Assembly: GCF_006402735.1 (NCBI RefSeq) | Contig: NZ_CP017174.1 | Location: 4,467,001 to 4,531,000 of the forward strand | Source of the DNA: Myxococcus xanthus | GTDB lineage: Bacteria > Myxococcota > Myxococcia > Myxococcales > Myxococcaceae | Direction: 5' to 3' | DNA: 64,000 nucleotides | In this document: in pieces, positions 7,596 through 33,091 of the stretch | Layout: each line of letters opens with the position of its first letter | Numbering within the stretch: the first letter of the stretch is position 1 | Translations under genes and position numbers: made by a program | The notes under the pieces: model-generated | Database searches by the model: none | Seen by the model: the letters and a program-made list of their open reading frames with translations, nothing else | Told to the model about the DNA's origin: nothing

Positions 7596-8396
7596 ATGCG
7601 AGGCAGGAGGGTGACCCTGGTACCGCTGGCAGTGACGACGAGCACGAAGGTGGATGCGGCGCTGGTGCGCGAGGCGCGGGCCGTGGCGGCGCGGTGGGGT
7701 GTGCCCTTCCTGCCTCGGCGCGCGAAGGAGAGCGTGGCGCCGTGGCTGGGGACGAAGGCGGCGGCGCTCTTGGTGGTGGGCGGTGACGGCGTGACGCTGT
7801 GGGACGCGGAGGGCTCGTTCGGGTTCCACGCGGGCATGGCGCACCTGCGGCGGATGCGGCTGCGGGCGGGGGAGCCGGATGCCTTCGTTCGGGTGGCGGA
7901 GCTTCGCGCCGGGGACTCGGTGCTGGACTGCACGTTGGGGCTGGCGCAGGACGCGATGGTGGCGTCACTGGCGGTGGGGCCCTCGGGGCGCGTGGTGGGG
8001 CTGGAGCGGAGCCTGGCGCTGGGAGCGGTGGCGGGGGAGGGGCTGCGGCGCTATGCGCTGGGCGAGGACTCAGGGCCCATTGAAGTGGTGCACGCGGATG
8101 CGCGCGAGTACCTGAAGACGTTGCCGTCGCGCGCGTTCGACGTCGTCTTCTTCGATCCGATGTTCGCGAAGCCGCGCAAATCACAGCCGGCGTTCGACAT
8201 GCTGCGCCGCTTCGCGGAACACGCGCCGCTGACGCAGGCGACGCTGGAGGAAGCCCGGCGCGTGGCGCGGCGGTGGGTGGTGGTGAAGGGCGCGAAGTAC
8301 ACGGACGACCTTCGCAAGCTGGGCCTGGAGGATGAGCCCGGCTCGCGCTTCACCGACGTCATCTGGGGCCGCGTGGGGCCCTCCGCCGAGCTGTGA
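7596..8396 (+). CDS. RsmJ-like SAM-dependent methyltransferase
   Basis: A class I methyltransferase of about 266 residues. The SAM-binding loop is VLDCTLGLAQDAMVAS (RsmJ-type proteins have D.T.GLG.DA), followed by an acidic residue at the end of strand 2 (GLERS) and a catalytic-type motif VVFFDPMFAKPRKS resembling the DPM[FY]P motif of RsmJ, the enzyme that makes m2G1516 in 16S rRNA. An rRNA guanine N2 target is therefore plausible but inferred. The start is uncertain: the frame is open from GTG 7533, conserved sequence begins near VTLVPLAV (7611), and AGGAGG sits at 7605-7610. I chose ATG 7596. It converges on the 5'-nucleotidase gene. Confidence 0.75.
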   Translation: MRGRRVTLVPLAVTTSTKVDAALVREARAVAARWGVPFLPRRAKESVAPWLGTKAAALLVVGGDGVTLWDAEGSFGFHAGMAHLRRMRLRAGEPDAFVRVAELRAGDSVLDCTLGLAQDAMVASLAVGPSGRVVGLERSLALGAVAGEGLRRYALGEDSGPIEVVHADAREYLKTLPSRAFDVVFFDPMFAKPRKSQPAFDMLRRFAEHAPLTQATLEEARRVARRWVVVKGAKYTDDLRKLGLEDEPGSRFTDVIWGRVGPSAEL

Positions 8397-8405
8397 GGGC
8401 GGTTA

Positions 8406-8422
8406 TCACCCTCCAGGGGTGA
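8406..8422. terminator. Short hairpin between convergent genes
   Basis: TCACCC and GGGTGA form a 6-bp stem around a small loop just after the methyltransferase stop and before the stop of the leftward 5'-nucleotidase gene. There is no T-run. It is weak, and offered only because of its position. Confidence 0.25.
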
Positions 8423-8473
8423 CTGCCTGACAGGTTCCGATCCTGCGGGAAGCTCTGACGCGTCGCCTGAGGC

Positions 8474-10183
8474 CTACTCGTTCCCGGCGCCCTTCGGGGG
8501 GCCTTCGCTGCCCATCGGGGACAGCCGGGCGGACAGGGCTCCGGCCTGCTCGTGGGCCATCTTGTCCCGCGGTGAGCGGTAGTACTGCATGGGCGAATGG
8601 TGCAGGAAGTTCGACACCCGGCTCGTGTACAGACAGGCGTACTGCTCCACCTGGTAGCCAAAGCGGCTGTTCTCGTTGCCTTCCTTGAAGAGCAGTCCCC
8701 AGTACGGGTTGAAGCCTTCCTCCACGTCCTGCTCGAGCGTGTCCGCGACCTCGTTGGCCTCTTTCAAGGCCCGCCGCATCCGGTCCAGCTCCAACTTTGT
8801 CTGCTTGCGGAGCTCCTCCACGCCCAGCCGCTCATCCGGCGCCAGCTGTTCGCGCTCCAGCCGCCGCTCCAGGATGTTGAGCAGCGTCTTGTGGTGGTTC
8901 ACCTCGTCGTCCAGGCGCTCACGGAGCACCTCCACCTGCGACAGCGTTCCAATCTCCTCCTGCCGCGTCGCCGTGTACGTGATTTCGTCCTCAATCTCCT
9001 GGACCACCATGCACGTGCGCCACAGCGACGACTTCTTCGACTTCAGGATGTCGCCGTAGATGTGGTCGCCCACGTACAGGATGTTCTCGCCCCGGTAGCC
9101 CGTCAGCTCCTCGAAGCGCGCCAGGTTGCCGCCCGAGTACACCTTGCCGCGCTCCAGCGACGAGGCCTCGCCCACCACGCGGCCTTCCTCCGTGGAGGCA
9201 TCCAGCTCCAGGAAGGGGTGCGAGTCGGTGAAGAAGCCCGGCTTGCCCGCCGACGTCACCACCACGTCGAAGTAGTTCCTCCAGCTCGGATACTCCGCGA
9301 GCTGTCCGTCCAGGAGGTACTTCATCACCGCGTCCGTGTAGTCCCACGCGGAGTTCGTCAGCAGGAACAGCCGCTTCCCACCCGAGCGCAGCTTGTGCAA
9401 TGCCGGCCCCAGCTCCGGGTCCAGGAACACGTAGCGCGCCAGGTCCTTGCGCACCTCGCGCTTGAGCGAGTTGTCCCGATGCACCGTGTCGATGGCCTCC
9501 CGGATGTCGTCGTACAGCTTGCCGTACTGGACCGTGTGGCCCAGCGACTCCAGCAGCTCGATGATGCCCGCGAACAGGCACGTCTCCGGCAACGCGAACA
9601 ACGTGTCGTTCCACGCGAACTGCGGGTTTCGCAGCCGCACGCGCTTGTTCCGGTACAGCTCACGCGAGACCTCGCGCTTCAGCGGGCGCAGCCCGTGGTA
9701 CGCGCGGCCCACGTGGCCGAAGCGGTCCATCTTCAGGATGTTGCCGTTGACGCGGTCCACCGCCAGCCCGCGCATCACGAAGTGATGGTCGTACAGCAGC
9801 CCGCCCACCACCGGCGGATAGCCGTACTCGCTCACCAGCTTCGCCAGCGTCATGTCGAACGACAGCTGCTCCAGCCGGCGCATGTGATAGATGGCCAACG
9901 TGTAATCCATGTCGAAGCCGAACAGTTCGACACTGGCCATGCGCAGGTTGCGGTTGACGAAGATGTCCCGCGCCCGTTGCACCACCACCTGGCGCTCGCG
10001 GGGCGACGTGAGCAGCCGCGTGAGCTCCTCGTCGGCGAGCAGTCCACCGGCTCGCTGCGCGGCGTCCTCGGCGCGGGCTCGATTGAGGGGAGAACGGAAG
10101 CTCCCGTGAAGCGGGTCCGGCGCGGGCCCACCCGGGATGGGACGGAACGGGGAAAGTGATGGTGCCAAGGGACTCAGACACAT
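8474..10183 (-). CDS. HAD-type 5'-nucleotidase (purine IMP/GMP class)
   Basis: A 569-residue cytosolic enzyme of the eukaryote-like 5'-nucleotidase family (cN-II type), which dephosphorylates purine nucleoside monophosphates. HAD motif I is FGFDMDYTLA with the two catalytic aspartates at about 91 and 93. Motif II is FLLTNSAWDYT, and the motif III/IV region is YVGDHIYGDILKSKK. A long charged helical part follows (about 420-500). The C-terminus ends in a flexible Gly/Pro stretch. ATG 10183 was chosen: the frame is open to 10306 but the extra residues are Arg/Gly-rich and lie over the divergent gene's promoter. No clear ribosome-binding site precedes it, so the mRNA may be near-leaderless. Confidence 0.85.
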   Translation of the reverse strand: MCLSPLAPSLSPFRPIPGGPAPDPLHGSFRSPLNRARAEDAAQRAGGLLADEELTRLLTSPRERQVVVQRARDIFVNRNLRMASVELFGFDMDYTLAIYHMRRLEQLSFDMTLAKLVSEYGYPPVVGGLLYDHHFVMRGLAVDRVNGNILKMDRFGHVGRAYHGLRPLKREVSRELYRNKRVRLRNPQFAWNDTLFALPETCLFAGIIELLESLGHTVQYGKLYDDIREAIDTVHRDNSLKREVRKDLARYVFLDPELGPALHKLRSGGKRLFLLTNSAWDYTDAVMKYLLDGQLAEYPSWRNYFDVVVTSAGKPGFFTDSHPFLELDASTEEGRVVGEASSLERGKVYSGGNLARFEELTGYRGENILYVGDHIYGDILKSKKSSLWRTCMVVQEIEDEITYTATRQEEIGTLSQVEVLRERLDDEVNHHKTLLNILERRLEREQLAPDERLGVEELRKQTKLELDRMRRALKEANEVADTLEQDVEEGFNPYWGLLFKEGNENSRFGYQVEQYACLYTSRVSNFLHHSPMQYYRSPRDKMAHEQAGALSARLSPMGSEGPPKGAGNE

Positions 10184-10255
10184 AACACGCGTGTGGGTGG
10201 CCCGGCTCTTACCTTGCGGGGCTTGGAGTCGGCATGGCACGCTCCGGGGTCTGCG

Positions 10256-10567
10256 ATGCGCTCGCCCACCCGACGACAGCCCTCGGAGGCCCCCGAGGCG
10301 GTTCAAGCTCGCCTGTCCGCCCGGATCGCCGCGCTCGAAGATCGGGTTCGCCGCCTGGAGGCCCGGTTGCGTCTGAAAGTCGCCGCCACCGAGCCCGCCG
10401 CGCGAAGAGCCGCCCAGCGTACGGCCGAGCGCCCGGCCCGGGCCCGTCCCCGCTGCCCGGGGTGCACGCTGGAGCTGCCGCGTGGCCGCCGCGGTGAGTC
10501 GTGCGTGTGGTGTGGCTTCGTCTTTTCCGCCGTCACGCGGCGACGTCCGGCGCGAAAGAAGCGATGA
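10256..10567 (+). CDS. Small coiled-coil/zinc-ribbon protein
   Basis: A 103-residue protein, not recognised. The first half is a short coiled coil (ARIAALEDRVRRLEARL). The C-terminal half has CPGC and, 18 residues on, CVWC, a likely zinc ribbon, and the protein ends in a basic tail (RRRPARKKR). ATG 10256 is preferred over an earlier in-frame ATG at 10193 because the latter adds only low-complexity residues. Its TGA overlaps the ATG of the pseudokinase gene (ATGA), so the two are translationally coupled and probably work together. Nucleic-acid binding or scaffolding is possible, and nothing more can be claimed. Confidence 0.65.
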   Translation: MRSPTRRQPSEAPEAVQARLSARIAALEDRVRRLEARLRLKVAATEPAARRAAQRTAERPARARPRCPGCTLELPRGRRGESCVWCGFVFSAVTRRRPARKKR

Positions 10568-27729: not shown

Positions 27730-28137
27730 ATGCCGCGCGACACTTCCACCCCCGTTGTGCCTCCGGCCCTGAGCTGGGTCCCCGTCCACGGGGACAGCAT
27801 GTGGCCATCGCTGCGCTCGGGCGACCATGCCGGCGTGGAGCCGTTGGAGGGGGCTCCACGACCTGGTGACGTCCTGCTGGCGCACTTCGACCATGCCCTG
27901 GTGCTGCACCGACTGCGGCGGTGGGAGGCCGGAGCGGTGGCGCTGCGAGGCGACAACTCGCCCCAGGAGGATCCACCGCTGGCGCCGACGCGCGTGCTGG
28001 GGCGGGTGCGCCGCGTCCGCCGGGGAGGCGTCGTCCTGGAGACGGGGTGGGACCGGGGTCCCCGGTGGCTGGGCCGGCTGCGGGTGGCCGTGAAGTGGCG
28101 CCTGGCGGCGTTGCTGGGCCGGGGAGGTGCGCGATGA
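27730..28137 (+). CDS. Small soluble S24/S26-type peptidase, operon-specific
   Basis: A 135-residue protein with the signal-peptidase/LexA-type fold. The nucleophile is Ser23 in HGDSMWPSLRSGD. The second catalytic residue is probably His60 in ALVLHRLRR, as in SipW/ER-type signal peptidases that use His instead of Lys. The RGDNSPQED and RVLGRVRRVRRGG blocks follow. Unlike housekeeping signal peptidase I there is no membrane helix, so it should act in the cytoplasm, possibly removing the leader of the small peptide encoded later in the operon. Its stop overlaps the ATG of the PqqD-like gene (ATGA). The 145-bp gap upstream separates it from hisS and probably contains the promoter. Confidence 0.8.
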   Translation: MPRDTSTPVVPPALSWVPVHGDSMWPSLRSGDHAGVEPLEGAPRPGDVLLAHFDHALVLHRLRRWEAGAVALRGDNSPQEDPPLAPTRVLGRVRRVRRGGVVLETGWDRGPRWLGRLRVAVKWRLAALLGRGGAR

Positions 28138-28430
28138 GCGCGGAATTCGCGGCGGACCATGCGCCGCGCTGGCGCGAGGGCGTCTCCGGCCAGCGCTTCG
28201 GCTCGGACTTCATCGTCCTGGATGCCGAGGGCAACACCCTGCGTGGGCTCAACGGAACGGCCATTGAAATCTGGGAACTGTGCGACGGGACGCGCACGGC
28301 GCGGGCCCTGGTTGAGCAGGTGGCCCAGCGTCACGGATGGGACGTGGAGCAGGTGCTGACCGACACGCTCAAGTTCTTCTCGGAGCTGACCCGGCTGGGG
28401 CTCATCGACGAGTTGGAGGAGGCGCGGTGA
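28134..28430 (+). CDS. PqqD-family peptide chaperone (RiPP recognition element type)
   Basis: A 98-residue PqqD-like protein. The family pattern LNGTAIEIWELCDGTRTA is intact, followed by LVEQVAQRHGW and a helical C-terminus ending LIDELEEA. PqqD proteins form a winged-helix-like RiPP recognition element that binds the leader of a precursor peptide and hands it to a modifying enzyme. No pqqA, pqqC or pqqE gene is near, so this is not PQQ synthesis. The genuine partner is likely the 48-residue peptide encoded at 32106 and the HPr-kinase-like protein after it. It overlaps genes on both sides (ATGA each), so co-translation is tight. Confidence 0.88.
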   Translation: MSAEFAADHAPRWREGVSGQRFGSDFIVLDAEGNTLRGLNGTAIEIWELCDGTRTARALVEQVAQRHGWDVEQVLTDTLKFFSELTRLGLIDELEEAR

Positions 28431-28963
28431 TGCGGACGCGTTTGGCGCTCCTGGCGGCGGCGGTGATGCTGGCCTCGTGCACGGAGGGCGTGGCGCCCTA
28501 TGCCCCCGTTCATGCGCCCCCGGCGCAGGAGCCGGTGGCGCCCACGGACGTGTTGCCCCCGCGCGAGGGTTCGGAGGCCAGGCCGCCGCCCGCGCCGGTG
28601 GAGGAGCCGGAAGTGCCTCCGCCTCCGCCGCCCGTGGTGCCGCGGGGCTCGGCCACCGTCATTGACCTGGGAGAGGGGCGCCGGGGCTTGCTGTCGGTGG
28701 AGCAGGTGGACGTGGACCTGACGGTGAGCGGCGTGCGTGGCCGGCACACGGTGTCAGTGGAGTTCGTGCCGCCTTCCGGGCTGCCGTATGAGCGCCGCTC
28801 GGCGGAGGTGGATTCACGCGTGGACGAGTCGCGCACGGTGCGCTTCTCCCTGCCCGTGGCCGGCACCGCCGTGGCGACGTCCGGCATGAGCGGGACGTGG
28901 CAGGCCCGGTTCTTCCTCGATGGGGCGCCGCTGACGGCGGCTTCCTTCACCCTGGATCCGTGA
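28430..28963 (+). CDS. Lipoprotein with Pro-rich linker
   Basis: A 177-residue envelope protein. The signal peptide ends in a good lipobox, MLASC (Cys about residue 17). A Pro/Glu/Ala-rich linker (about 20-72) leads to a beta-rich domain of about 100 residues (VDLTVSGVRGRHTVSVEFV and later FSLPVAGTAV) that looks like a small immunoglobulin-type sandwich. It is probably anchored in the outer or inner membrane, with the domain exposed. The start ATG overlaps the PqqD stop. The big PQQ-propeller protein gene begins 11 bases downstream, so the two secreted products may form a complex. Confidence 0.78.
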   Translation: MRTRLALLAAAVMLASCTEGVAPYAPVHAPPAQEPVAPTDVLPPREGSEARPPPAPVEEPEVPPPPPPVVPRGSATVIDLGEGRRGLLSVEQVDVDLTVSGVRGRHTVSVEFVPPSGLPYERRSAEVDSRVDESRTVRFSLPVAGTAVATSGMSGTWQARFFLDGAPLTAASFTLDP

Positions 28964-28974
28964 GGGCTCCATTC

Positions 28975-31900
28975 ATGCGTCCGTTCTCCGCTCCCCTCGT
29001 CGCCGCCGCCGCGCTCCTGGCGCCCTCGCTGGGGTGGGCGCAGTCGATGTCCCCGACCGCCGTCTTGACCACGCAGCCGCAGGGTGGGGACACCCGCGCG
29101 CGGGTGGTGATGGACGAAGCCTCCGAGCTGACGGTCGATGTCCGCAACAACACCTTCAGCTGGTCGCCGCTCTTCCGGCGCATCAACGAGGTGTGGTTCG
29201 CGCTGCCCAATGGCTACATCCCGCTCGCGTCCATCCCGCCCCCGGGATGGACGGTGGACTACATCGCCAATGAGCGGTGGGTCATCTTCTACAATCAGGA
29301 CTCCTGCAACGGCAGCGGCGACTACGGCCTGGGGCAGGACGAGTCGGCCCGGTTCGTTCTTCGCGTGGTTCCACCGACGTCGAACAACGACCAGAACAAC
29401 GAACGCTTCATCGCGAGTCAGACGTTCGCGCGTGACACGTGCGCGGGGGGCGACTTCACCACGTCGGTGACGACCTCGGCCGCGAGCTGGATTCGCTCCG
29501 GCCTGTACACCCAGGTGGACGTGCGTCCTCGGGTGATGGGAGTTGGCGGCGACATCGACGCGCGGATGGTGGTGGAGAACCGGACAGGCACGAACCACAA
29601 CAATACCACGGTTGAGGGACCCTCCACGGGCGCGGGCGCCGTCACCTTCCAGGTGGTGGACACCGAGCCGACGCCGTTCCGCATGAACATCGCCAGCCGG
29701 AACGCGGGCGTTTATTCCGCGAGAGTGCGGACGGGCTCGGCCGGAACGCTGGTGGCGCGGGTGCGGGGCGTCAGTGGGAACGGCAACACCGTGTCGCCCG
29801 CGATGGACGCGCGGATGGTCAACGTGGGGGCGCTCCCGGTGGCCATGGACGTGGACACCGACGACGCTTTCAACAATGAGCTCGTGCGGGTGCGGCTCAC
29901 GGTGACCAACCCGACCTCGACGGACACGTTCCTGAACGTGACGCCGCGCGCGCCCGTGTTCCAGGGAACGGCAGCCGCGTCGCTCGTGTCGGGGCCTGGG
30001 CCCGCGAGCGTTCCCCGGCTGGACCCGGGCGCCTCCGCGCACTTCGTCTGGACGTACCAGCTCACGGGCTCCCCGTTCGCGAACTACCGGTTCCGGGGGC
30101 AGGTGGATGCCACACGCAACGGCGCCTCTGTGACATCGAACCTGGTGGACTCGAGCCAGGGGCGCATCGTGCAGCACCGCGTGCGGACGAACATCAGCGC
30201 GGCGGCCGCCAACTCCACGAACCGGTCCGTCATCTACACCATCCAGAACCGGGGCCCCATGCCGCTGCATGAGGTCCGGCTGCTGCGGCCCGCGCTCAAC
30301 TACTTCACCGTCAGCGGCGTGCTGCAGACGCCCACCGGGTGGCGCATGGCGTCCAACAACGCCACCACGGGCATCACCTGGGAGTCGACGAACGCCACGG
30401 GCATCCCGGTCAACGGCGAGCGCTCCTTCACGGTGGTGTATTCCAACTTCGGGGCGGGCGCGTCGCTGTCCGGGCCCACCACGTTCCGTCATCGCTTCCA
30501 CCTCATCGACGATTACGGCGGGCCGCAGATTCGCATCGACACCCCGATGACGCTGGTGCAGGGCACCGTGCCGGACGTCAACCGTCTCACGGGCGTGGCG
30601 CGCGATGGCAGCGTGACGCTCGCCTGGGACAACCCGGCGGTGCACGGGGGCGTGCTGATTCTTCGCGCGGAGGGCGCGCCGCCGAACCTCTCTCCGACGC
30701 AGGGGCTGACCTACGCGGTGGGGGCCTATCTGGGCAACGCCCAGGTGGTGTACGCGGACGACGTTGGCGCCACCACGACGTTCACCGATACGTCCGTCAC
30801 CAACGGCACCACGTACTACTACCGCGTCTTCAACTCGGATGACCTGCGGTGGTACTCGCCGGGCAACCAGCCGACGTCGCAGGCCCTGGTAGCCACGCCT
30901 CGGGCTCGCGTGGGCGCGGCGCCGCTGTGGTGTTACTCGGTGGGCCTGAATGCCTCGCAGCAGCCCATCACCGAGCTGGGCACGGGCATCTTCAGCGCCT
31001 TCAACGACTCCGTCGTCGCCAACCTCACGCAGGTCACCAATCCGTCGGCGGATGGCGCGGAGCGGTGGCGGCCTCGCCCGCTGGCGGGCCTCATTGGCAG
31101 CCGCTTCCCGGTGGTGCCGCTGCATGGCCTGTCCGGGCAGTACATCCTCGTGGGTGACCAGGGTGGCGTGGCCAGCGCGCTCAATGCCGCCACCGGCCAG
31201 GTGCTTTGGCGCTGGGACAATGGTGGCCAGCCCATTGGCACCATCCAGTCGTTCCCCGTCACGCAGCTCTTCGACTACGCGAACGCCGCGTACCGGGCCG
31301 CGCACCCCAACCGCGACCTCGTCTTCTTCGCCACGCGGCTGGCGGACGCTTCGCGCAACCGGGTGGTGGCCCTGAATGCCGCCACCGGCGCGCCGGTTTG
31401 GAGCTACCAGCCCGGGAATCTGGGCATGGTGGCGGGCGGCATGGTGGTGGACTACACCACCAACCGGCTCTTCGTGGCGACCCGCGCGCACGCGGGATCG
31501 CCGAACACGCTTCGGGTGCTGAACACGCTGACGGGTCAGGTGCTGGCCCAGCTCCCGGTGGGCGACGTGGAGCTGAGCCTGGTTCGCAATGCGTACAGCA
31601 ACCTGATTCTCGTGACGGACAGCGATGGCTTCGTGCACGGCGTGGACGCCGCCACGGCGCAGCTCGTGTGGAGCCTGCCAGTCACCACGCGCCCGGCGCC
31701 GAACACGCCGGCCTTCACCAGCTTCGTGCGGCCCCAGGGCTTGGGCTTCGTGGCCAGCCTCGCGGCTGGCCGGGTGGCGCTGTACGACGTGTCGGGGCCC
31801 GCTCAGTCGCCGCCGGTGCTCCGGTGGAGCACGCCGATTGCGTCTCCCTCTGGCGCCTTCTCCTTCAATCGGAATGGCGCCGTGCGCCTCTACGTTGGCA

Positions 31901-32073
31901 GCTCCGACGGACAGGTCCACCAGTTGGAACTGCTGGATGGCTCCGACTCTGGTCAGGTCTCGATTGGTGGTGCGCAGCGTATCGGGACTCCCACCATCGA
32001 CCACACGGTGAGCCGCCTCCACGTGGGCTCCGAAGATGGTCGCATCTGCGCGTTCCCAGTCCCGTTCCCTTGA
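28975..32073 (+). CDS. Large secreted protein with Ig/FnIII modules and PQQ-type beta-propeller
   Basis: A 1032-residue exported protein with a signal peptide (about 1-23, ending LGWAQ). The N-terminal half contains several beta-sandwich modules, including a fibronectin-III-like domain near residues 540-640 (GSVTLAWDNPAVHGG and TTYYYRVFNSDD). The last third (about 710-1032) has repeated blades with the PQQ-like pattern: SALNAATGQVLWRWDN, VALNAATGAPVWSYQPG, LRVLNTLTGQVLAQ and HGVDAATAQLVWSLP. No transmembrane anchor is seen at the C-terminus. It should be a surface or periplasmic adhesion/scaffold protein. ATG 28975 follows GAGGG. The precursor-like peptide gene begins 32 bases after its stop. 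Confidence 0.8.
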   Translation: MRPFSAPLVAAAALLAPSLGWAQSMSPTAVLTTQPQGGDTRARVVMDEASELTVDVRNNTFSWSPLFRRINEVWFALPNGYIPLASIPPPGWTVDYIANERWVIFYNQDSCNGSGDYGLGQDESARFVLRVVPPTSNNDQNNERFIASQTFARDTCAGGDFTTSVTTSAASWIRSGLYTQVDVRPRVMGVGGDIDARMVVENRTGTNHNNTTVEGPSTGAGAVTFQVVDTEPTPFRMNIASRNAGVYSARVRTGSAGTLVARVRGVSGNGNTVSPAMDARMVNVGALPVAMDVDTDDAFNNELVRVRLTVTNPTSTDTFLNVTPRAPVFQGTAAASLVSGPGPASVPRLDPGASAHFVWTYQLTGSPFANYRFRGQVDATRNGASVTSNLVDSSQGRIVQHRVRTNISAAAANSTNRSVIYTIQNRGPMPLHEVRLLRPALNYFTVSGVLQTPTGWRMASNNATTGITWESTNATGIPVNGERSFTVVYSNFGAGASLSGPTTFRHRFHLIDDYGGPQIRIDTPMTLVQGTVPDVNRLTGVARDGSVTLAWDNPAVHGGVLILRAEGAPPNLSPTQGLTYAVGAYLGNAQVVYADDVGATTTFTDTSVTNGTTYYYRVFNSDDLRWYSPGNQPTSQALVATPRARVGAAPLWCYSVGLNASQQPITELGTGIFSAFNDSVVANLTQVTNPSADGAERWRPRPLAGLIGSRFPVVPLHGLSGQYILVGDQGGVASALNAATGQVLWRWDNGGQPIGTIQSFPVTQLFDYANAAYRAAHPNRDLVFFATRLADASRNRVVALNAATGAPVWSYQPGNLGMVAGGMVVDYTTNRLFVATRAHAGSPNTLRVLNTLTGQVLAQLPVGDVELSLVRNAYSNLILVTDSDGFVHGVDAATAQLVWSLPVTTRPAPNTPAFTSFVRPQGLGFVASLAAGRVALYDVSGPAQSPPVLRWSTPIASPSGAFSFNRNGAVRLYVGSSDGQVHQLELLDGSDSGQVSIGGAQRIGTPTIDHTVSRLHVGSEDGRICAFPVPFP

Positions 32074-32105
32074 AGAACGTCCCTTCTTCCTCGCTCGCAC
32101 ACCCC

Positions 32106-32252
32106 ATGACTTCGGACGCCTTCCAGACGCCGCCCCCTCCTGACGCCGGCCCTGCCTATGAGGCGCCGGCCATTCTCTGGGAGCAGCCCTTCGTGGCACT
32201 GGCGCAGATTTCCCAGTGCAACATCCCCGGTGAGTCGGAGTGCATTCCCTGA
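32106..32252 (+). CDS. 48-residue precursor-like peptide of a PqqD/HprK system
   Basis: A small gene easily missed by annotation. The peptide is acidic and Pro-rich at the N-terminus (QTPPPPDAGPAYEAP), then WEQPFVALAQIS, and ends in QCNIPGESECIP. YEAPAI (18-23) matches the YxxP-x-(hydrophobic) leader signature read by PqqD-like recognition proteins in lasso peptides. The tail has Cys38 and Cys46 enclosing Asn-Ile-Pro-Gly-Glu-Ser-Glu, a natural core for a ring or disulfide, and Ser36/Ser44 could be kinase targets. The HPr-kinase-like gene starts inside its last codons (GTG 32240). Coding support: position in a tight operon, overlapping stop/start and compatible composition. Ribosome-binding site is weak. 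Confidence 0.6.
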   Translation: MTSDAFQTPPPPDAGPAYEAPAILWEQPFVALAQISQCNIPGESECIP

Positions 32253-33091
32253 CCCTTCCGCCGGAAGGCCCCACGGCGGACGCGGCCCTCTGCCTGCGAA
32301 TCGCCGGTTGGACGGGAGTTGTGGAAGTCGGCGATGCGGGCCTGCGAGACTCGCTCCGGCGCATGTTCTCCCGGTTCGTGGTGTCCCCAGCGCGACAGGG
32401 CAGTGAGGTGGCTCGGCTCGTGGCCGTGGCCCCCGCCCAGGCGCGTCCTGCCCCCGTCATTCGCGAGCTGCCACGGGTCCACCGAGCGGAGGACGGCACG
32501 CTGCGCCTGGCCGGCGAGGACTACGACGCGACGCTTTCCGCCGACGGCCTCCAGGCCCACGTTGAGGGGCAGGGACGGTTTCCCGTGGAGACGGTGCTGA
32601 AGGTGATGCTTGCCCGGGCGCTGGCTCGGCGTGGCGGGCTGCTGGTGCATGGCGTGGCGGTGGCGCACCAGGGCCGGGCCGCGCTCTTCACGGGGCACTC
32701 GGGGGCGGGGAAGAGCACGCTGGGGGGCCTGTGGGCGCAGGCGGGCGGGCAGGTGTTGTCCGATGAGTTGGTGGCCGTGTGGCCGGAGCCGGGCCGTGGG
32801 TGGCGGGCGGCGGGGACTCCCTGGAACGTGGGGCAGGCCGTCGAGGCGGAGCTGCGCGTGGTGGGGACGTTGGCGTGGGACGGCGTGTCGACGTGGGAGC
32901 CGCAGGCCGCTGGCGACGTCGGACGGATGCTGCTCGTCAATGCCCTGCTGCCCGAGGCGACGCCCGTGGGGCGGGGTGGGCTGCTTGGCGCGGCGGGACG
33001 GTTGCTGTCGGAGGTTTCGCCCGTGCGGTTGGTGTTCGCGCGTGATGCGTCCGCGGCGGCGGTGATTCAGGGAGCGTTGGCGAATGGGTGA
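32240..33091 (+). CDS. HPr-kinase-like ATPase (HprK-related)
   Basis: A 283-residue protein with the HprK/P-loop kinase fold. Walker A is GHSGAGKST (152-160), preceded by the typical LLVHGVAVAHQGRAALF. The acidic LSDELVAV follows, then a GTPWN element. It lacks the HPr-binding signature of true HPr kinase and no ptsH gene is near. HprK-related proteins of this size accompany PqqD proteins in peptide-modification loci, where the best-known member phosphorylates a C-terminal Ser of a lasso peptide. Here the substrate may be the peptide whose stop lies inside this gene. GTG 32240 is taken as start because it overlaps the peptide stop by 13 bases. The miaA gene overlaps its end. Confidence 0.85.
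   Translation: MHSLTLPPEGPTADAALCLRIAGWTGVVEVGDAGLRDSLRRMFSRFVVSPARQGSEVARLVAVAPAQARPAPVIRELPRVHRAEDGTLRLAGEDYDATLSADGLQAHVEGQGRFPVETVLKVMLARALARRGGLLVHGVAVAHQGRAALFTGHSGAGKSTLGGLWAQAGGQVLSDELVAVWPEPGRGWRAAGTPWNVGQAVEAELRVVGTLAWDGVSTWEPQAAGDVGRMLLVNALLPEATPVGRGGLLGAAGRLLSEVSPVRLVFARDASAAAVIQGALANG

Follow-up and report, generated by a model that had tools for sequence, protein, structure and literature searches.

A six-gene operon at positions 27730 to 33091 of a 64,000-nucleotide stretch of the Myxococcus xanthus genome (NZ_CP017174.1, positions 4,467,001 to 4,531,000; hereafter the window) probably specifies a ribosomally synthesized and post-translationally modified peptide (RiPP) by a pathway like that of the Linear Polyphosphorylated Peptide (LPP) family. 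A RiPP recognition element (RRE), an HprK-like kinase and an S26-type peptidase would act on a short precursor, and the pathway would here be equipped with dedicated secreted partners. The genes, all on the + strand, are packed between hisS and miaA; the initial annotation had described six packed same-strand genes, and all six open reading frames (ORFs) are present as it stated. The operon comprises the following features.

27730..28137, + strand: S26-type (archaeal/SipW-like) Ser-His-Asp peptidase, probably soluble, proposed leader peptidase (Pfam, conserved residues)
28134..28430, + strand: PqqD-type RRE, proposed leader-binding protein (Pfam PqqD, LppB-like contact residues)
28430..28963, + strand: lipoprotein with a proline-rich linker and a C-terminal domain without family match (lipobox LASC, identified by eye)
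28975..32073, + strand: secreted propeller protein with a signal peptide, beta-sandwich and FN3-like domains and a BamB-like propeller (AlphaFold2, Pfam)
32106..32252, + strand: 48-residue precursor peptide (ORF, kept in relatives)
32157..32204, + strand: leader motif YEAPAILWEQPFVALA, positions -16 to -1 (57 aligned peptides; ratio of nonsynonymous to synonymous variation, pN/pS, 0.105)
32205..32249, + strand: proposed core QISQCNIPGESECIP with two Cys, Ser3 at 32211-32213 (57 aligned peptides)
32240..33091, + strand: HprK-like P-loop kinase, proposed Ser3 kinase (AlphaFold2 fold, motif residues)

Consecutive genes overlap by 4 bases (S26 and PqqD), 1 base (PqqD and lipoprotein) and 13 bases (peptide and kinase), and gaps of only 11 and 32 bases separate the propeller gene from the lipoprotein gene before it and the peptide after it. 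The kinase gene overlaps miaA by 8 bases in the window genome, miaA lying further away in some relatives. A search with the kinase protein, carried out in the order, gave matches in 94 of 145 genomes, and 60 stretches were fetched around such matches; 46 of them (L032-L077) hold close homologues of the kinase, and the other 14 (L078-L091) were set apart because their kinases are distant. All six genes stand in the same order in every one of the 46 loci, the S26 gene being truncated by the contig end in three, and because this order is identical throughout the six-gene set is not a chance assembly. Both hisS and miaA lie inside the fetched stretch in 39 of the 46; the remaining seven comprise four short contigs, L073 without hisS, and L066 and L072 without miaA in the stretch. 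Diverged versions of some or all parts are found in G085, G086, G091, G092, G128, G015 and G155. Peptide and propeller searches place the operon in 27 of 27 genomes of the genus; it appears to be spread throughout Myxococcus and its near relatives, which we take to mean that it stays at a fixed site and is inherited along with the species.

The 48-residue ORF, on whose conservation in relatives the initial annotation had made its reading depend, is kept in 56 of the 195 genomes of the phylum (the set to which all phylum counts refer). The peptide profile matched 58 of these genomes; the matches in G093 (E 0.003) and G171 (E 0.005) were judged to be chance from their weak scores and frames. Fifty-seven peptides from the 56 genomes (two in G128), gathered by similarity to the window peptide or to the A1 profile, were aligned. 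The register pattern itself demands Tyr or Trp at -16, Pro at -13 and Trp at -9, which all 57 carry (Tyr in 56 and Trp in one at -16), and only the other positions are free counts: Ile or Val at -11 in 57/57, Ala at -3 and Ala at -1 in 54/57 each, and, at core position 3, Ser in 54, Thr in two and Val in one. Two Cys are present in 56 of the 57 cores. Among the 43 peptides of one length, pN/pS rises from the value listed above for the 16-residue leader to 0.476 in the core, which may be affected by the overlap of the last peptide codons with the kinase start in some genomes including the window's, and to 0.843 in the eight codons 5' of the leader. A strict leader followed by a looser core is the pattern that a RiPP precursor would show. 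An artefactual ORF was ruled out by the conservation in relatives and the codon constraint, and by these sequence measures the small ORF is real. Two further peptides located after a lipoprotein gene (L188:5097-5258 and L189:5856-6008) have C-terminal parts, VSCQKIFGESDVC and VSCQKIWGESEYC, that resemble SQCNIPGESEC of the window core, with different leaders.

The closest known pathway is that of the Paenibacillus alginolyticus lpp cluster, which has been shown experimentally (Popov et al. 2026, PMC13381572). In that pathway several phosphates are reported to be placed on core Ser3, the peptidase, acting with the RRE, cleaves ahead of core residue 1, and the precursors follow the motif YxxPxVLxHQxIxFETxxS; the family was described in 2026 without a final product or an assigned role. 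When the window Tyr is set at -16, Pro-13, Ile-11, Leu-10, Gln-7 and Ser+3 fall in the LPP register, and the LPP residues H-8, I-5, F-3, E-2 and T-1 are replaced in the myxobacterial consensus by E, F, A, L and A. Both systems combine a YxxPx[VI] leader, its Tyr at -16, and a Ser at +3 with a discrete RRE that has contacts of the N33/D70/F74 type and with an HprK-like kinase, together with a Ser-His-Asp leader peptidase resembling signal peptidase I, assigned here from its residues; neither has a macrolactam synthetase. Bacillota loci were found through LppB, which matched 14 of 398 genomes, these genomes having been reached through L128 (Halalkalibacter); an LppB search against plasmids gave no match. 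L149, earlier filed as lasso, was moved because it has an S26 match and no asparagine-synthetase motif, and is counted with the LPP rows (n=7) in the trees and the joint alignment. Two Bacillota LPP-type precursors (L147:6386-6547 and L152:5595-5735) carry two Cys after FET, as the window peptide does after its own leader.

In the comparisons that follow, A denotes operons of the hisS-miaA type, B the loci with FG-GAP genes and C a mixed group. The window RRE matches Pfam PqqD at E 4.6e-15, and its best match in the PDB is LppB (9x8z_B). The LppB contacts N33, D70 and F74 correspond here to N40, D77 and F81, each of which is kept in 49/49 core rows; in six diverged A rows the Asn and Phe are kept, and the Asp as well except for one Glu, and in the seven system B rows Ser replaces Asn at contact 40. 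That residue is Asn in 17/17 A rows and 7/7 LPP rows, and Gly, Asp or Glu in 6/6 lasso rows. The peptidase matches Pfam Peptidase_S24 at E 2e-10, and Ser23, His60, Asp75 and Asp81 are kept in 44/44 sequences, Ser23 and His60 being the two residues that the initial annotation had pointed out in a soluble protease of the signal-peptidase type. No strongly hydrophobic segment was seen in it (maximum KD19 0.52), and it is probably soluble. Its Ser, His and Asp columns are shared by 12/12 A and 7/7 Bacillota LPP sequences; in system B the Ser and His are kept and the Asp depends on the alignment. A Glu at kinase residue 176, described below, the RRE Asn40 and the S26 peptidase are common to the operon and the LPP loci and are not shared by the sampled lasso loci, nearly all of which are from Bacillota.

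The resemblance of the kinase to HprK is weak by sequence and clear by predicted fold. The operon's matches to the HprK-related kinase A (NCBIfam HprK_rel_A) and PqqD_rel_X pair (TIGR04352/TIGR04353; E 1.2e-6 and 3.1e-3) stay below the curated cut-offs (27.9 against 200 bits and 18.4 against 35 bits). The AlphaFold2 model (pLDDT 90.8), however, finds only phosphoenolpyruvate carboxykinase (PEPCK) or HprK/P structures among the 50 PDB matches listed, and residues H137, K158, S159, D175 and E176 are invariant in 47+12 kinase rows (L080 was left out of alignment A2 on account of a stop inside the frame). Fold and motif thus agree with the HprK-like ATPase that had been proposed for this gene. A true HPr kinase/phosphorylase was rejected: PF07475 gives E 0.063 and 13.3 bits against a cut-off of 33.3, and the canonical HprK (1.1e-67) is encoded elsewhere in the genome, together with HPr, at 8.18-8.22 Mb. 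The absence of a phosphotransferase system noted earlier consequently holds for the locus and fails for the genome. In the joint alignment all A (16/16), B (9/9) and Bacillota LPP kinases (7/7, the pair being D-E in six and N-E in one) carry Glu at residue 176, and 7/7 lasso kinases carry Asp. One fork of the kinase tree (Shimodaira-Hasegawa-like approximate likelihood-ratio test, SH-aLRT, 92) unites A, B, LPP, ten of the thirteen C rows and L130, with the lasso kinases and the other three C rows outside it, and within the tree the LPP kinases are closest to two C rows (98); this tree and that of the RRE were made by a quick method, and the former lacks support for 20 of its 50 inner branches and drew a warning of long-branch joins from the program.

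The sequences themselves establish the order of the genes, their conservation, the peptide register and the catalytic residues; the steps that we infer, namely phosphorylation, cleavage, export and partnership, would run as follows. The residues and the register suggest that the 48-residue precursor is held by its YxxPxI leader on the PqqD-type RRE. That the HprK-like kinase puts at least one phosphate on core Ser3, residue 36 of the precursor, is suggested by the position of this residue, by the signature of the kinase and by what is described for LPP and bsf. The soluble S26 peptidase, to which the RRE would present the leader, may then cut after AxA (Ala-1), between Ala33 and Gln34, as its catalytic residues and the AxA motif suggest, releasing a 15-residue core, QI(pS)QCNIPGESECIP, capable of forming a disulfide, presumably after export. 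Calculated [M+H]+ values for the core QISQCNIPGESECIP are 1617.725 in the reduced form and 1615.709 with the disulfide, each phosphate adding 79.966. Outside the cytoplasm the product would have the lipoprotein and the secreted propeller protein as dedicated partners, as their co-conservation suggests. A carrier RRE, a Ser/Thr kinase and a trimming protease had already been envisaged in the initial annotation, and each now has residue-level parallels in LPP; the role it gave to the propeller protein and the lipoprotein is suggested by co-conservation. The lasso loci that it took as the nearest parallel fit less well than the linear LPP pathway.

Several observations weigh against this reading. 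The similarity of the RRE to LppB is weak (E 0.032), and the contacts D70 and F74 do not discriminate, D being found in 4/6 and F in 5/6 lasso rows, and each in 5/7 LPP rows. The RRE tree, which is poorly resolved and does not separate lasso from LPP, joins the seven LPP rows (SH-aLRT 89) with lasso, apart from A, on a weak backbone (76). Residue 176 of the kinase is Glu in 9/13 and Asp in 4/13 of mixed group C, and Glu is also found in one Desulfobacterales HprK-related kinase (L130); it is therefore not exclusive to LPP. The single core with Val at position 3 is that of L079, and in G091 and G092 no peptide lies next to the second propeller copies. At the proposed cut site ALA takes the place of the FET of LPP; AxA is the usual preference of signal peptidases. 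Moreover, the operon lacks the nucleoside triphosphate (NTP) transferase and the MsbA exporter of LPP. Four PF14907 matches, three of them over the cut-off, are present in the genome, all unlinked to the operon, and a motif scan of the window gave one ATP-binding cassette (ABC) ATPase, 7 kb upstream and without an ABC_membrane domain. Two NTP_transf_5 genes lying 4 kb apart (G000:C1:1289995-1295561), also unlinked, are possible partners in trans.

Because the RRE tree groups LPP with lasso, apart from A, our claim from these sequence comparisons is that the operon would work in the manner of LPP, and we do not count it among the LPP members. It also differs in its phylum, Myxococcota instead of Bacillota, in its fixed hisS-miaA site as opposed to a patchy distribution, and in the added lipoprotein and secreted propeller protein. 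A scan of contigs with the kinase alignment gave at least three loci, none of them LPP-like by frame reading: L128 and L129, which contain asparagine-synthetase genes and served as lasso loci, and L130, in which a kinase, a PqqD and an apparent NTP transferase were read. No account of the myxobacterial system was found among the literature matches listed, from a search to which subscription papers were mostly closed. The closest known systems are the LPP clusters of another phylum, described in 2026.

The kinase-fold protein may instead use ATP for other chemistry, for instance to activate Ser or Cys, to form a heterocycle or a dehydro residue, or to transfer a nucleotide. Phosphorylation alone leaves the two conserved core Cys unexplained, the D-E pair differs from the D-D reported for BsfK (PMC10368454), and PEPCK ranks above HprK/P among the fold matches listed. 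Nevertheless, all five motif residues are kept, and Glu176 is common to the Bacillota LPP kinases, whose founding member is reported to phosphorylate Ser3, so that such chemistry appears unlikely.

The secreted proteins raise a second alternative, that the secreted pair has no tie to the cytoplasmic machinery beyond a common operon. The lipoprotein gene is present in 46/46 loci, and its product gives no family match in Pfam or NCBIfam up to E 1. The propeller protein matches Pfam PQQ_2 at E 5.7e-17, and its AlphaFold2 model (pLDDT 82.7) shows sandwich domains, which we would read as Ig-like, an FN3-like domain and a C-terminal propeller. A fold search of the PDB ranks a 1516-residue ciliary protein first, with a TM-score of 0.11, followed by matches led by BamB with TM-scores to the target of about 0.65-0.7; no solved relative was found by sequence at E 0.01. 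A quinone enzyme was rejected, since PQQ-enzyme families match only below their cut-offs and the fold gives no sign of a quinone function; the earlier label of PQQ-propeller accordingly gives way to a BamB-like fold. The protein is encoded in 61 of the phylum genomes, all of which also have a [YW]xxP peptide, 54 by profile and seven by a loose motif search. In those seven a short ORF with [YW]xxP and Cys directly follows the propeller or lipoprotein gene, and they are weaker evidence than the 54, the loose search having also given hits judged false. In L049 (G069), a single-contig genome, the propeller gene lies in three adjacent pieces, as a frameshifted or mis-sequenced copy.

Independence of the two halves would agree with a peptide that has no signal sequence, with an operon that holds no exporter linking it to the outside, and with those second propeller copies that lack a neighbouring peptide. 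It is made improbable by the invariant order in the 46 loci, by several diverged loci in which propeller, lipoprotein and peptide stay together, and by system B, which sets a different secreted beta-propeller protein beside its peptide. That the propeller protein and lipoprotein handle or display the product is suggested by this co-conservation.

The weakest alternative, that the operon makes a lasso peptide or supplies a precursor to lasso enzymes whose genes lie elsewhere, is very improbable. In its favour, YxxP leaders, a discrete RRE and an HprK-like kinase also occur in lasso loci, BsfK acts on Ser3 of a lasso precursor, and lasso and LPP are not separated in the RRE tree. Against it, the operon has no macrolactam synthetase or B2 peptidase; the window motif scan gave no AsnB-type candidate, no search for asparagine-synthetase genes having been made in the rest of the genome; the single Transglut_core3 match in the genome (PF13471, 26.7 bits) is marginal and unlinked; the lasso loci sampled have other residues at kinase position 176 and RRE position 40; and an S26 match was found in only one of the nine initial lasso loci, L149, the one since moved to LPP. 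In the phosphorylated lasso systems, paeninodin and bsf, the YxxP leader, the RRE and the HprK-like kinase are shared with the operon, and in bsf of Bradymonas sediminis (PMC10368454) BsfK is reported to phosphorylate Ser3 and an FG-GAP gene that the authors presumed uninvolved borders the cluster, as in system B; the differences lie in the lasso cyclase and B2 peptidase missing here, S26 standing in place of B2, and in the D-E pair against D-D. The small S26-like peptidase also resembles SodX, the maturation protease of nickel superoxide dismutase (TIGR02754, E 4e-5), but at 24 bits against a cut-off of 63.25 and with no gene for that enzyme among the six.

System B comprises 14 loci (L083, L084, L085, L087, L088, L089, L091, L121, L179, L181, L167, L170, L172 and L175), the last four having first been placed in mixed group C and later counted with B because FG-GAP genes are present. 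Its order is PqqD, giant FG-GAP protein, peptide, kinase and S26. The scan of the 14 found the giant gene in 12, the peptide and S26 in 13 each, and PqqD in 11; the FG-GAP genes of L170 and L175, and the L175 peptide, were seen in a separate look, and S26 lies 3.0 kb away in L167 and 1.1 kb away in L172. In ten loci the peptide follows YxxPxVRSxxxLVxxLF with at least two Cys, and the other four differ, those of L167 and L172 having no Cys. With Tyr set at -16, Ser does not always stand at +3. In L083 (1883-2845, - strand) the S26 peptidase is fused to a C-terminal GNAT acetyltransferase domain (Acetyltransf_1, 3.1e-13), a protein that might remove the leader and acetylate the N-terminus so exposed. 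The remainder of group C is not claimed as one system. Four of its loci, L163, L164, L165 and L174, combine an HprK-like kinase and S26 with a radical S-adenosylmethionine (SAM) gene, identified by Pfam in L163 and L174 and by frame reading in L164 and L165, with a YxxP peptide in L163 and L165, and may be a variant of the same scheme built on radical SAM enzymes. In L171 a Peptidase_C25 (gingipain-type) protein (7597-10434, 2.4e-40) directly follows the set of kinase and YxxP peptide.

The presence of an LPP-like set in Myxococcota contrasts with the restriction to Bacillota, patchy within Bacilli, that is described for LPP (PMC13381572). It is a tentative but possible interpretation that the operon represents a class of RiPP whose phosphorylated, disulfide-bearing product would serve a dedicated secreted beta-propeller protein as built-in ligand or as prosthetic part and would not be a diffusible antibiotic, a pairing that would have evolved at least twice in myxobacteria, with the BamB-like protein in A and the giant FG-GAP protein in B. 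The stable site in all 27 genomes of the genus and the link to particular secreted proteins bring the function within reach of ordinary genetics and mass spectrometry in a laboratory myxobacterium. They also suggest that the propeller genes that lie next to RRE/HprK clusters, the FG-GAP gene at bsf among them, are worth re-examination.

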